From: Acidimicrobiaceae bacterium
Lineage (GTDB): Bacteria > Actinomycetota > Acidimicrobiia > Acidimicrobiales > RAAP-2
Direction of reading: 5' to 3'
Length of the DNA: 64,000 bases
Assembly (NCBI GenBank): GCA_947455165.1
Contig: CANGMP010000003.1
Location: 1 to 64,000, forward strand
Shown: piece after piece, positions 24,914 through 30,216 of the stretch
How positions within the stretch are numbered: the stretch's first letter is position 1
How the letters are laid out: each line of letters starts with the position of its first letter
The notes under the pieces: model-generated
What the model saw: only the letters and a program-made list of their open reading frames with translations
What the model was told of the DNA's origin: nothing
Databases searched by the model: none
Translations under genes and position numbers: made by a program

Positions 24914-26394
24914 ACGCGGCCGTAACGCAGCTCGCCATGCCTTCAGTGCACTACGTGGCCATTGCGCCAATTTTGATCTTGCTCGGTGGCGCCCTCGTCT
25001 TGATGTTCGTCACGGCGCTCACGCGAGCCCGCGTCGCCACCGCAACGGCGACCATCATCACGGCCATCACCTCGTTGTCGGCGCTGGTCGTCTCCTTCTT
25101 CCAGTGGCACGACATCTCGATGAACGGTTCGACCACGACGCTGGCTCACGCCATCGCTCTTGACGGCTTTGGCGTCGTAGCCAGCTCGGCCATTGCCCTC
25201 GGACTCTTCTTGACCTCGTTTGTGGCCCACGACTGGACCAAGCGGGCCCGCGTCGTCGGTGCCGAGTTCCACATCTTGGCGATGGCTTCGGCCTCGGGCG
25301 CCATGATGATGGCCCAGGCCAACGACCTCATCGTCCTCTTCTTGGGTCTCGAGATTCTCTCGATTGGTCTGTACGTCCTTGTCGCCTTTGACCGTCACCG
25401 GGCCAGTTCGGCCGAAGCGGCCCTCAAGTACTTCTTGCTCGGTGGCTTCGCGTCGGCCATCTTCATCTACGGCGCAGCCCTGACCTACGGCGGTACCGGT
25501 TCGACCACGCTTACCTCGATCGCCTACTTCTTGGCCCACAACTTCATCATGCAGCCCGGCGTGCTCGTCGCGGGTCTCGGACTCATGGTCATCGGCTTCG
25601 CCTTCAAGGTCGCGGCCGTTCCCTTCCACGTCTGGTCACCCGACGTCTACGAGGGCGCCCCGACACCGGTCACCGGTTTCATGGCCTCCGTCGTGAAGGT
25701 CGGTGCCTTCGCCGCGGTGATGCGCGTCATTTTCGGGGCAATGCTCACCCAGGCCGATTCGTGGCGTCCGCTCGTCTGGGGCATGATCGTGCTCTCGACG
25801 CTGCTCGGAGCGAGCGTGGCCCTGGTGCAGCGCAACATCAAGCGCCTGCTGGCCTACTCGTCGATCTCGCACGCCGGTTTCATGCTGCTCGGTCTCTGGT
25901 CGGCTTCGCCGGCCGGTGTGGCGGGCACGCTCTACTACGTGGTGACGTACCTCCCCGTTGTCGTGGCCACCTTTGCGGTCATTACCTTGGTCGGTGGGGC
26001 CGATGAGTCGAACCACGACATTGAGCACTACCGCGGCCTGGCTCGTCGTCAGCCGCTCCTCGGTGCGGCCTTGGCCGTCCTGCTCTTGTCGCAGGCCGGT
26101 GCCCCCTTCACCACTGGTTTCTTCGCCAAGTTCTCAGTTATCACTGCCGCGGTGGCCGCCGGCGGTGCCTGGCTGGCCGTGATTGTCATGGTGGCCGCGG
26201 CCATCGGTGGTTTCTTCTACGTGCGCCTCGTACTCTCGCTCTACGCCGAGGACTCCCTCGACCGTGTGCGCGTTGAGGTGCCCCGCCTGACGGGTCTCGT
26301 CATCGCCTTCGGTGCCGTGACGGCCATTGTGTTCGGCGTCTGGCCTGGCCCGATCGCCAACCTGGCCCACCACGCCACGCTGCTGCTGCCGTGA
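24910..26394 (+). CDS. nuoN: NADH-quinone oxidoreductase subunit N
   Basis: FLGLEILSIGLYVLVA; VPFHVWSPDVYEGAPTPVTGFMASVVK. Confidence 0.96.
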   Translation: MNAAVTQLAMPSVHYVAIAPILILLGGALVLMFVTALTRARVATATATIITAITSLSALVVSFFQWHDISMNGSTTTLAHAIALDGFGVVASSAIALGLFLTSFVAHDWTKRARVVGAEFHILAMASASGAMMMAQANDLIVLFLGLEILSIGLYVLVAFDRHRASSAEAALKYFLLGGFASAIFIYGAALTYGGTGSTTLTSIAYFLAHNFIMQPGVLVAGLGLMVIGFAFKVAAVPFHVWSPDVYEGAPTPVTGFMASVVKVGAFAAVMRVIFGAMLTQADSWRPLVWGMIVLSTLLGASVALVQRNIKRLLAYSSISHAGFMLLGLWSASPAGVAGTLYYVVTYLPVVVATFAVITLVGGADESNHDIEHYRGLARRQPLLGAALAVLLLSQAGAPFTTGFFAKFSVITAAVAAGGAWLAVIVMVAAAIGGFFYVRLVLSLYAEDSLDRVRVEVPRLTGLVIAFGAVTAIVFGVWPGPIANLAHHATLLLP

Positions 26395-27239
26395 CCAGCC
26401 GCGTCGCGATAGCGACGTGCCAAGACCTTTACGTCGACGAAGACACGCCACTGCTGCTGGAGGCACTGAGTGTCGCGGGGGTGGAGGCCGATCTGCTGGC
26501 TTGGGACGACCCCGAGGCCCACTGGGATCGTTACGACCTCACGGTGGTTCGCTCGACCTGGGACTACTCGGCCCGACGGGACGAGTTCTTGGCCTGGACC
26601 CGGTCGGTGCCGAACCTGGCCAATCCGGCCTCAGTGATGGCATGGAATACCGACAAGCACTACCTCCGCGAGCTGGCGCAGCGCGACGTGCGGATCATTC
26701 CCACCACCTTTGCCGACGTCGGCATTGAGCCCATCTTTCCGACGGGGGACTTCGTCGTGAAGCCGGCCGTCGGGGCAGGCTCCATTGACGCCGAGCGATA
26801 TGGTTCGCACGACCATGCCGCGGCCGCCGAACACGTCCGTCGCCTGCACCGCGAGGACCGGGACGTCATCGTCCAGCCCTACGTCGCCTCCATCGACGAC
26901 GAGGGTGAGCTAGCCCTTGTCTTCATTGATGGAGAGTTCACCCACGCCCTGCGCAAGGGCGCGATGCTCAATACCCACGAGCACGACCGGAGCCAGCTCT
27001 TCCGGGCCGAGCAGATGCGTCTCATCGACGTCAGCGACGAGCTCGTAACGCTGGCGCACGCCGTGATTGCGGCCGCGACTGACGAACCCCTCCTCTACAC
27101 CCGGGTTGACCTATGCCGCCTCGACAGCGGCGAGCATGCCCTCATGGAGCTCGAGATGGTGGAGCCTTCGCTCTTCTTGACGCACTGGCCCAGCGCGGCG
27201 ACCACGCTGGCTCGAGCTATTGCTCGTCGGACGGCGTAG
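26391..27239 (+). CDS. ATP-grasp domain protein (RimK/glutathione-synthetase-like ligase)
   Basis: VVRSTWDYSARRDEF; FVVKPAVGAGSIDAERY; VIVQPYVASIDDEGELALVFIDGEFTHALRK; GTGA overlap with nuoN. Confidence 0.8.
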   Translation: MTSRVAIATCQDLYVDEDTPLLLEALSVAGVEADLLAWDDPEAHWDRYDLTVVRSTWDYSARRDEFLAWTRSVPNLANPASVMAWNTDKHYLRELAQRDVRIIPTTFADVGIEPIFPTGDFVVKPAVGAGSIDAERYGSHDHAAAAEHVRRLHREDRDVIVQPYVASIDDEGELALVFIDGEFTHALRKGAMLNTHEHDRSQLFRAEQMRLIDVSDELVTLAHAVIAAATDEPLLYTRVDLCRLDSGEHALMELEMVEPSLFLTHWPSAATTLARAIARRTA

Positions 27240-30216
27240 GGTCGAGCGAGATATTGGCCTTGGCCAAGACGTCGTCGGGAATGACGGTGCTGGGTCGATT
27301 CGCCGGATCGTTGGCCAGCAGTCGACCAATCAAGGGAATCTCAGTCAAGCTTTCGGCGCGCAGCACGGCCGCGACGACTGGCACCAGTGACTCAAAGGCC
27401 GGGTAGACGAGGTAGCGGGGCAGCCAGTCCGGCTGATACTTGGCGTTAAAGGTCCAGAGCGACTCAATTGGCAAAATCCCCGAGAGGCGCTTGAGGGCCC
27501 AGCGCTCCACCTTGGTGAAGGTGCCGTCACCCTTTTCGCCGTCGAGCACGCTGCGAAAGGCTGCGAAGTTGAGACTGAGACCCTGACCCCCACGTCCTCG
27601 GAGATACTCAATCGTTGAACAGAGCGCGTAGTCAATGAGTCCATTGGGGTGCTCACCCGGGTCTCGACGCATGAGGTCCAGCGAGTAGCCGTTGATGGCG
27701 GGGGAGGGGACGAACTGGCAGACCGCCACCGGGACGCCGTCGGGGCTGTTGACGATCGTCAGAATCAGACCCTTGTCCCGAGGGTTAAAGAGTCGGCCCA
27801 GCATCATTGAAAAGCCGCGCTCGCCTTCGCCGCGGCGCAACTTGGCGATGAGGTCCATGATGCCGCGAACGCGAGCCGGGTCGATCGTCGAGGGGTCGAC
27901 GAACTCCACGGTGTAGCCGTTGCGAGCCAGACGGGTGCAGGCCTGACGCAGTCCCTTCATCTTGCCGCCCTCGAGGGAGAAGGTCTGGCAGTTCACGACG
28001 CCCTCGTCACCGATGTAGATGTGATGCAGGCCAGCGCCCTGGTAGATCGGCAACCACTGTTGGCCGGCTCCGATGACCGCGAGGGTCCAACCACGCTCGT
28101 CGGCGAAGCGGCGAAAGGCCGCGAAGACCTCAATGCGGTCACCCTCGGGACCGATGGGGTCCGGCGAGATCAGCGAGACACCGCCGTAGACGGCGTAGGC
28201 CACGACCGAGTCGCGGTAGAAGAAGAACTGCTTGTCATCACGCAGCGCGAAGAAGTCGAGCGTGCCTCGACCGTGGCGACGGACGATGTCACGGGCTCGC
28301 AGTTCGGCCAAACGACGATCAGCCGAACTGCCGTGCGACGAAAGTCGGCGGTCCACCACCGGTCGGGTCAAGAGGTAGAGACCACCGATGAGCACGATGA
28401 TGCCGAGCGAAAAGAGAGTGGGGGAGAGAAAGTCGCCGGCCCGGTCGGGGAGGGCCAGTCGCTCAACGCCAATCAGTCGCTCGACGCACGCTTGGATGAC
28501 GCTGATCCAGCGATGACCAAAGGGGATCTGCGAGGTGACGATGACGACGATCGAGGCGACCGCGACAGCACTAACCAGGATGCCAGCCAGTTTCGGCAGG
28601 GCCGAAGAGAATGAGCCCCGATCGGTGGCCGCTCGAAAGCTCGGCCGTTCGGTGACGAGGAGCGCCAGCACCGCGATGTTGAGGACCGTGCCAAAGAGGT
28701 TGCCGCCGTGCAGGGTGTGTGTGATGGTCGTGGCGGCAAAGAGCAGCGTGGCCACTACCCAGGAACGGCGCTGGCCTCGTCGCAATCCTCGAGCCATCAT
28801 GATCATGCCGGCGCCGGCTAGAGCGGTGGCCGCCGCGGCCGACTGAGCCACGCCGAGCGGGAGGATGTGGAGCAGCGTGCCGAGCCGGCCTCGAGCCGGT
28901 GGCACGATGGCGGTGGCCACGTTGGCCAAACCAGACGCCAAGACGACACCACTAACCATGCGGCGGATGCGCTGTTCGCGACGGAAAATGAGCTGGCGAA
29001 GCGGCGTCTGGGGCCAGGCCTCGCCTTCGGGCCACGCGCTGAGCAGGGTGGGGGTCTGCGGCGGTGCCGGCAGCAGGGCTCGACCCGCAACCCAGCGTTC
29101 TAGGCGTGTGGCCGTCGCTTCACGGACACCGCTGGCAACGAGGCGAACGCGAACATCACTACCGGCTTCGACGACGACGTAGGTGAATCGAGACACTGGT
29201 TGAAAGACTGGCGGCAGTGCGAAGCGACCACGTCGCTCAACGAGCACTCGCCCCGATGGGCCGGGTGCCGCACAGACGCCATTTTCGAGAAAGGCGACGG
29301 TTGGTCGCGTACACCCACCGACGATGAGGCCGAGCCGGCCCTGGCTGATCGCGGTGCGGGCGTAACTCACGGCGTCGGTCTCGTTCACCATCACCATGCT
29401 GAGTGGTTCGCGAGCTTCACTATCAATGGCTGAACGCCGAAAGAAACGACGACGAGCCAACGTGCTCGCCACAAAGACCAAGACGGCCTCAAAGAGTGCG
29501 ACGGCAAAAAAACTGGCTGAAGCCCAGGCCCACGACGTGAAGTGAGGAGTCTTTCCGAAGAAGCTCGATCCTCGTGGGCTCACCAAGTCGCTGATGCCCA
29601 GCGCCACTGAGGTGGAGATAAGCAGACCAAAGACGGCGATGGGCAGCCAGACCCAGGGGCCGAACCGACGGTAGAGGAGTCTGGATTGGGTAAAGCGGGT
29701 AATGCTCTCGGCGTCGTCGAGACGGCGGGCGTCGGCCCGTTCCCGTTCCGCGACCGGTTCGACATCACGCTCGCTACGACCGGCCTCGACATCCAGAAAG
29801 CGCACACCGCGCCAGGTCTCCAAGCGCAGCTGGAGCGACGAGGCCGTTGAAAAGCCCCACTCACTCAGGTAGGCCTGGGCGTCCGCGGCGTCGGTGAGTG
29901 CGGCGTCGGCCACGCCGGGCAGGAAGGTGACGGTAGCGCCCTGGCGTGTGGCGACCTGCGTAAGCGCATCATGCAGGGGGGCGAGTCGCTGAAACGTGGC
30001 CGCAATGAACCGACGGGGATCGCTGGTGGGGGCAAAATCAAAGGTGCCTCCGGCAAAGACGATGTGGGCCACTTCGTCAATTTCGTTGAGTCGGGCCACC
30101 AACGAGCGCAACGCCGGCGCCTGAAGGTCGCTGTCGGGCGAAAGGCCGAGGTCGCTAAAGACGTAAACCCGCTGGCCTCGAGGAATCGACAACAGTGTCG
30201 GGGGCACGGTACTCAC
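27217..30216 (-). CDS. Multidomain membrane protein: degenerate metallophosphoesterase-like N-terminus, TM segments, MprF/DUF2156 (phosphatidylglycerol lysyltransferase-type) C-terminus
   Basis: N-term VYVFSDLGLSPDSD / IVFAGGTFDF / VTFLPGVADAAL; C-term FFFYRDSVVAYAVYGGVSLISPDPIG, GFSMMLGRLFNPRDKGLILTI, GLSLNFAAFRSVL typical of MprF-type aminoacyltransferase domains; GTG start. Confidence 0.82.
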   Translation of the reverse strand: MSTVPPTLLSIPRGQRVYVFSDLGLSPDSDLQAPALRSLVARLNEIDEVAHIVFAGGTFDFAPTSDPRRFIAATFQRLAPLHDALTQVATRQGATVTFLPGVADAALTDAADAQAYLSEWGFSTASSLQLRLETWRGVRFLDVEAGRSERDVEPVAERERADARRLDDAESITRFTQSRLLYRRFGPWVWLPIAVFGLLISTSVALGISDLVSPRGSSFFGKTPHFTSWAWASASFFAVALFEAVLVFVASTLARRRFFRRSAIDSEAREPLSMVMVNETDAVSYARTAISQGRLGLIVGGCTRPTVAFLENGVCAAPGPSGRVLVERRGRFALPPVFQPVSRFTYVVVEAGSDVRVRLVASGVREATATRLERWVAGRALLPAPPQTPTLLSAWPEGEAWPQTPLRQLIFRREQRIRRMVSGVVLASGLANVATAIVPPARGRLGTLLHILPLGVAQSAAAATALAGAGMIMMARGLRRGQRRSWVVATLLFAATTITHTLHGGNLFGTVLNIAVLALLVTERPSFRAATDRGSFSSALPKLAGILVSAVAVASIVVIVTSQIPFGHRWISVIQACVERLIGVERLALPDRAGDFLSPTLFSLGIIVLIGGLYLLTRPVVDRRLSSHGSSADRRLAELRARDIVRRHGRGTLDFFALRDDKQFFFYRDSVVAYAVYGGVSLISPDPIGPEGDRIEVFAAFRRFADERGWTLAVIGAGQQWLPIYQGAGLHHIYIGDEGVVNCQTFSLEGGKMKGLRQACTRLARNGYTVEFVDPSTIDPARVRGIMDLIAKLRRGEGERGFSMMLGRLFNPRDKGLILTIVNSPDGVPVAVCQFVPSPAINGYSLDLMRRDPGEHPNGLIDYALCSTIEYLRGRGGQGLSLNFAAFRSVLDGEKGDGTFTKVERWALKRLSGILPIESLWTFNAKYQPDWLPRYLVYPAFESLVPVVAAVLRAESLTEIPLIGRLLANDPANRPSTVIPDDVLAKANISLDPTPSDEQ

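Follow-up and report, generated by a model that had tools for sequence, protein, structure and literature searches.

A degenerate metallophosphoesterase domain, split by a membrane hairpin, at the place of the flippase in an MprF-type protein

The window (the whole 64,000-nucleotide stretch of DNA analyzed here) contains a fusion gene, at 27217-30216 on the minus strand, whose 999-residue product joins a metallophosphoesterase (MPE) domain, itself split by a transmembrane (TM) hairpin, to six TM helices and an LPG synthase domain. The protein is probably a lipid aminoacyltransferase of the MprF/LysX type that attaches an amino acid to a membrane lipid. The reading that we favor is of a cytoplasm-facing lysyl-PG synthase in which the flippase half has been replaced by a lipid-binding pseudo-phosphoesterase, which feeds or positions PG or gates the synthase; taken as a whole, this reading seems to us evenly poised between right and wrong.

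The reading frame is uninterrupted and begins with GTG, either at 30216 or at 30207, the latter being better spaced from an AGGAG sequence (30223-30219). It comes from a 1.54-Mb draft MAG; the close relatives that bear names are for the most part MAGs of Acidimicrobiaceae or Acidimicrobiales recovered from peat, lakes and similar sites. An orthologue was found in all 37 of the genus genomes searched (some copies are cut by contig ends), and this, along with single open frames in independent MAGs, rules out an assembly or frameshift artefact. By inspection the gene lies among housekeeping genes, flanked on one side by the nuo operon together with an ATP-grasp gene and on the other by a HAD-like gene, hemG, hemH and hemE; this gene order recurs at locus L083 of a genome from the window's own family (G368). 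The convergent ATP-grasp gene (26391-27239) and the fusion gene overlap at their 3' ends by 23 bases (27217-27239). No lipid genes were seen in these nuo/hem surroundings, and the loci read around stand-alone MPE genes of the same type (see below) hold no MprF-like neighbors, so that gene neighborhood is uninformative about the role of the MPE domain.

Members of the LPG_synthase_C family carry out aminoacyl-tRNA-dependent aminoacylation of PG. The Pfam profile of this family (PF09924) matches residues 644-938 (27403-28287, minus strand) with an E value of 1.8e-63 and 214.8 bits against a cut-off of 27.5, which bears out the MprF/DUF2156-type C-terminal domain recognized in the initial annotation, and the fusion gene is the sole carrier of a PF09924 domain in the draft genome. 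Sequence comparison with the solved LysPG and AlaPG synthases gives E values as low as 2e-23, and Foldseek returns MprF and synthase-domain structures (4v36, 5vrv and 6lv0), with a TM-score of up to 0.83 on 5vrv/4v36. The top NCBIfam matches are LysX (261.7 bits, cut-off 742) and MprF (207.6 bits, cut-off 600), both below cut-off. One genome carries a second, shorter PF09924 protein in addition to the fusion (a 338-aa frame at G029:C48:67026-67841).

The six TM helices ahead of the synthase domain, at residues 404-616 (28369-29007, minus strand), match MprF Subdomain 2, and the full-length model has six long helices in this region. In sequence, residues 418-940 align with Rhizobium MprF (RtMprF) starting at its residue 345; Subdomain 2 of RtMprF has been defined as Ser334-Arg530, with TM9-14 (PMC8131360), and by these limits the matched stretch consists of Subdomain 2 plus the synthase. 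The flippase Subdomain 1 (TM1-8) that would precede it is absent from the window protein, where residues 1-400 are MPE, and a C-terminal lysyl-tRNA synthetase (LysRS) module is absent as well, the protein ending at residue 999 after the synthase with no LysRS match in Pfam or NCBIfam. Six TM helices and the synthase are enough for LysPG synthesis by SaMprF, and mycobacterial LysX (MtLysX) also has six TM helices (PMC8974105); on this precedent, the corresponding parts of the window protein can constitute a complete synthase. The suggestion of a "lipid-modifying or scramblase system" is thus upheld in its first half by the synthase domain but finds no support for its second, the flippase Subdomain 1 being the very part that is missing.

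The N-terminal region, from about residue 4 to residue 400, is firmly predicted from sequence profiles and structural models to adopt an MPE fold, with a core that a membrane hairpin interrupts after motif IV and before motif V. The first half of the domain, which holds motifs I-IV, covers residues 1-170 (29707-30216), the hairpin residues 171-265 (29422-29706, with helices at 191-212 and 229-258 in the model) and the second half residues 266-400 (29017-29421), all on the minus strand. The window protein alone gave no significant MPE match in Pfam or NCBIfam, and no Metallophos domain was found above threshold in its genome. The corresponding domains of ligand-complete relatives do pass Pfam Metallophos (28.2-33.4 bits, cut-off 21.5), and hhalign of 74 window-type homologues against four of these relatives gave a probability of 100 and an E value of 1.7e-41 over residues 4-380, a profile-profile result that rules out chance resemblance of motifs. 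The AlphaFold2 model of residues 1-415 (pLDDT 87.1, pTM 0.85) retrieved LpxH first in Foldseek (2.7e-6), followed by GpdQ, Rv0805, Vps29 and DNA-polymerase B subunits. A profile search of the PDB with the four intact relatives found nothing significant (the best MPE matches were Vps29 at E 0.24 and LpxH at E 0.5), and the fold assignment therefore rests on hhalign and structure.

The agreement of model, Foldseek and hhalign substantiates the N-terminal MPE fold of the initial annotation, which had named structure prediction as the check, but its extent had been misjudged. The domain had been taken to occupy some 180 residues followed by TM segments; it is really about 400 residues long, its second half lies beyond the hairpin, and motif V (GGCT) had been missed. 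Six TM segments do follow the domain, while two TM helices lie inside it. Orthologues align through the SDL, AG(N/G) and PG..D motifs, then the two membrane helices, then a GG..RP motif. Flanking charges place the MPE domain, like the synthase, on the positive-inside face of the membrane, toward the cytoplasm, which is what an aminoacyl-tRNA-dependent enzyme requires. The full-length model has a pTM of 0.66, at which the mutual placement of the two domains is not reliable.

Column-by-column alignment with the ligand-complete relatives assigned the metal motifs, all on the minus strand, and confirmed that the three motifs quoted earlier are real and correspond to motifs I-III. Motif I is SDLGLS (residues 21-26, 30139-30156; SDLHL in the canonical form), in which D22 is kept and H has become G; motif II is AGGTF (residues 55-59, 30040-30054; GDxF), with D changed to G; and motif III is PGVAD (residues 100-104, 29905-29919; GNHD), with N changed to V and H to A. 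Motif IV, VEAGR (residues 143-147, 29776-29790), reads VEHGH in intact relatives and has A for H, and motif V, GGCT (residues 300-303, 29308-29319), has lost both H residues of GHTH (GHxH). One of the eight canonical residues of the two-metal ligand set (D-x-H, GD, GNH, H and GHxH) is thus left in the window protein, namely D22; D104, the equivalent of the D in GNHD, is also kept. The eight positions correspond to D8, H10, D41, N79, R80 (in place of H), H114, H195 and H197 of LpxH, where R80 takes the place of the customary His and does not figure among the listed metal ligands (PMC6286764).

Nearly all tabulated genus members likewise retain one of the eight residues, and one retains two. The complete set is present in fused relatives from the window's own family (L062/L076), from elsewhere in the class (L045, L046) and from another phylum family (L187, L188), and in all stand-alone MPE-hairpin relatives. 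Toward more distant members of the same family the classical residues reappear stepwise (L034, for example, has GHTR and EPGH). Ligand loss across the clade, which the initial annotation had proposed to check by aligning orthologues, therefore holds for the genus and not in general. The initial annotation had also said that orthologues with intact ligands would count against it, and this applies by half: intact relatives exist and are themselves fusions, but the window's lineage has truly degenerated.

In the 44 degenerate copies the metal positions scatter: motif II has N in 27, D in 7 and G in 6, motif IV has P in 16, A in 11 and S in 9, and the commonest residue at the motif III H position is R (20 of 44). 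An S-R-x-x-Y-R motif at the base of the hairpin (residues 178-183, 29668-29685, minus strand) is strictly kept in the same set, with S178, R179, Y182 and R183 each retained in 93-98% of copies. The MPE halves are under purifying selection, weaker than that on the synthase, with dN/dS values in the closest orthologue pairs of 0.11-0.39 and 0.04-0.18, respectively. One fusion (L039, at G039:C67) is 850 aa long and keeps the synthase, but the hairpin and the greater part of its first MPE half are gone; it marks an end point of domain erosion, and L024 is also strongly eroded.

A distant-family query found matches in 69 of the 346 genomes that were sampled from the class, almost always in long open frames, and fusions also occur in two families outside it (L187, L188 and L189). 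A typical Acidimicrobiales-type fusion gene in a record titled Candidatus Saccharibacteria (L093, CAJCJA010000002.1) probably reflects mislabeling or mis-binning. Stand-alone split MPE proteins of about 420-500 aa are encoded in other families; six of them (L182, L184-L186, L190 and L191), from genomes of one other family, are ligand-complete with the hairpin between motifs IV and V, and an ArsA-like ATPase gene lies near L182 and L184. Three of four stand-alone-MPE genomes tested have no PF09924 gene (G038, G434 and G399), and the fourth (G415) has one elsewhere, indicating that the phosphoesterase, when it stands alone, needs no aminoacyl-lipid synthase in order to function.

In a tree of the MPE domain, built with the eight metal columns left out and rooted on the stand-alone proteins, three changes between complete and incomplete ligand sets are needed, and strongly supported branches force at least two. 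The counts alone give no direction, but the sensible reading is that the changes are losses of the metal site, about three in number, because none of the stand-alone relatives lacks any of the eight residues and it is implausible that the full set was regained several times. The fold thus began as an enzyme, became part of the fusion, and afterwards lost its metal ligands on about three occasions.

The amino acid attached is likely lysine, for which the hint comes from a relative in G368. The ligand-complete fusion in this genome (L076, 6222-10801 of contig WLNI01000001) begins where a LysRS gene ends on the same strand. That LysRS gene scores 605.6 bits against a cut-off of 468 and is the only one above cut-off in the genome; such adjacency was seen once among the loci read. 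The pair recalls the LysRS module of LysX. At the position syntenic to that of the window gene, G368 also retains a degenerate copy (L083).

The favored reading can be set out as follows. The pseudo-MPE domain, six TM helices and GNAT-type synthase domain would together form a membrane-bound aminoacyl-PG synthase, most likely using Lys-tRNA. The MPE domain would derive from a stand-alone membrane-hairpin phosphoesterase resembling LpxH, which was fused at the place of the MprF flippase Subdomain 1 and then lost its two-metal site in the window's lineage. What is left may no longer catalyze a reaction but serve, at the inner surface or inner leaflet of the membrane, as a module that binds a phospholipid head group through the kept S-R-x-x-Y-R at the hairpin base, so that bound PG could be fed to or positioned for the synthase, or the synthase gated. 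In LpxH a helical cap that binds lipid sits between H114 and H195, in the motif IV-V interval (PMC6286764); the location of the hairpin in the same interval, together with the kept basic and aromatic motif, is what points to lipid holding or delivery. Three steps here are inferred: that the amino acid is lysine, that the dead domain binds lipid, and that it is coupled to the synthase. S-R-x-x-Y-R may be no more than a motif whose positive charge anchors the protein at the membrane.

The main rival is that the MPE part is a relic, which does no more than anchor the synthase in the membrane or offer it a platform for folding, and whose leftover conservation reflects fold stability and TM anchoring. 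The MPE domain is the faster-evolving part of the protein (mean identity to the window protein of 40%, versus 78% for the synthase), the metal site was lost about three times, erosion has gone nearly to completion in L039 and far in L024, and many of the best-kept MPE columns are G, P or hydrophobic. Nevertheless, nearly all copies keep the full domain length, the dN/dS values of the MPE halves stay low, the conservation of S-R-x-x-Y-R and E373-R374 is stricter than a simple anchor would call for, and the domain persists in small genomes of 1.3-1.5 Mb. On balance, we consider the relic explanation rather unlikely.

A wider scheme takes in the intact proteins. In Actinomycetota, a lipid phosphoesterase inserted in the membrane would have been joined to an aminoacyl-PG synthase. 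Ligand-complete fusions would be two-step lipid enzymes, for example hydrolyzing a lipid phosphate to an acceptor lipid that is then aminoacylated, and several lineages would independently have turned the phosphoesterase into a lipid-binding pseudoenzyme controlling substrate supply to the synthase. We regard this scheme as quite doubtful. PgpA, a PGP phosphatase considered as the activity of the intact MPE, was found in none of 14 genomes, but since no more than 4 of 14 control genomes have it, its absence is uninformative.

That the dead domain is a regulatory sensor of a nucleotide or protein partner, as the initial annotation proposed, appears improbable. The structural matches include Vps29 and DNA-polymerase B subunits, and VPS29 is an inactive scaffold of MPE fold (PMC3101248); inactive MPE folds of this kind serve to bind proteins. 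However, no conserved partner gene was seen beyond the housekeeping nuo/hem neighborhood, and a membrane-crossing cap suits a lipid better than a soluble nucleotide. Finally, D22 and D104 are kept and LpxH itself has R at the motif III H (PMC6286764), the residue commonest there in degenerate copies, but continued phosphoesterase activity at an unusual or single-metal site is very improbable given that seven of the eight canonical residues are gone from the window protein, including both of GHxH and the bridging D, and that replacements differ between close relatives.

Among known systems, the bifunctional lysyl-PG flippase/synthetase MprF (RtMprF 6lvf/7duw, PaMprF and SaMprF) shares TM Subdomain 2 and the GNAT-type synthase with the window protein, which has a hairpin-split MPE domain where MprF has the flippase Subdomain 1 (TM1-8). 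Mycobacterial LysX (PRK02983/NF002821), the best NCBIfam match of the C-terminal part, also has six TM helices ahead of the synthase; it carries a LysRS domain, whereas the window protein lacks one and has an N-terminal MPE domain instead. LpxH (5k8k, UDP-2,3-diacylglucosamine hydrolase, a pyrophosphatase of lipid A synthesis), the best structural match of the N-terminal model, resembles it in fold and in where the insertion lies, and in nothing more: the insertion of LpxH is a soluble cap rather than a TM hairpin, sequence identity is 16%, and the window protein no longer has the metal site. Other Actinomycetota families have stand-alone proteins (L182, L183, L184, L060 and L181) with the same kind of split MPE and hairpin, a full ligand set and no MprF part. 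In the open-access literature searched, we found no description linking MprF, DUF2156 or lysyl-PG with a metallophosphoesterase or calcineurin-like domain.

MprF-type proteins determine the charge of the membrane as well as resistance to cationic peptides; their known architectures have either a flippase half or a LysRS module. The MPE fusion is a third MprF-type architecture. Because it occurs in ligand-complete and dead versions, sometimes within one genome (G368), it provides a natural series on the role of a pseudoenzyme after the loss of its chemistry, and one that also bears on whether the catalytic MPE makes or consumes the lipid of the synthase.
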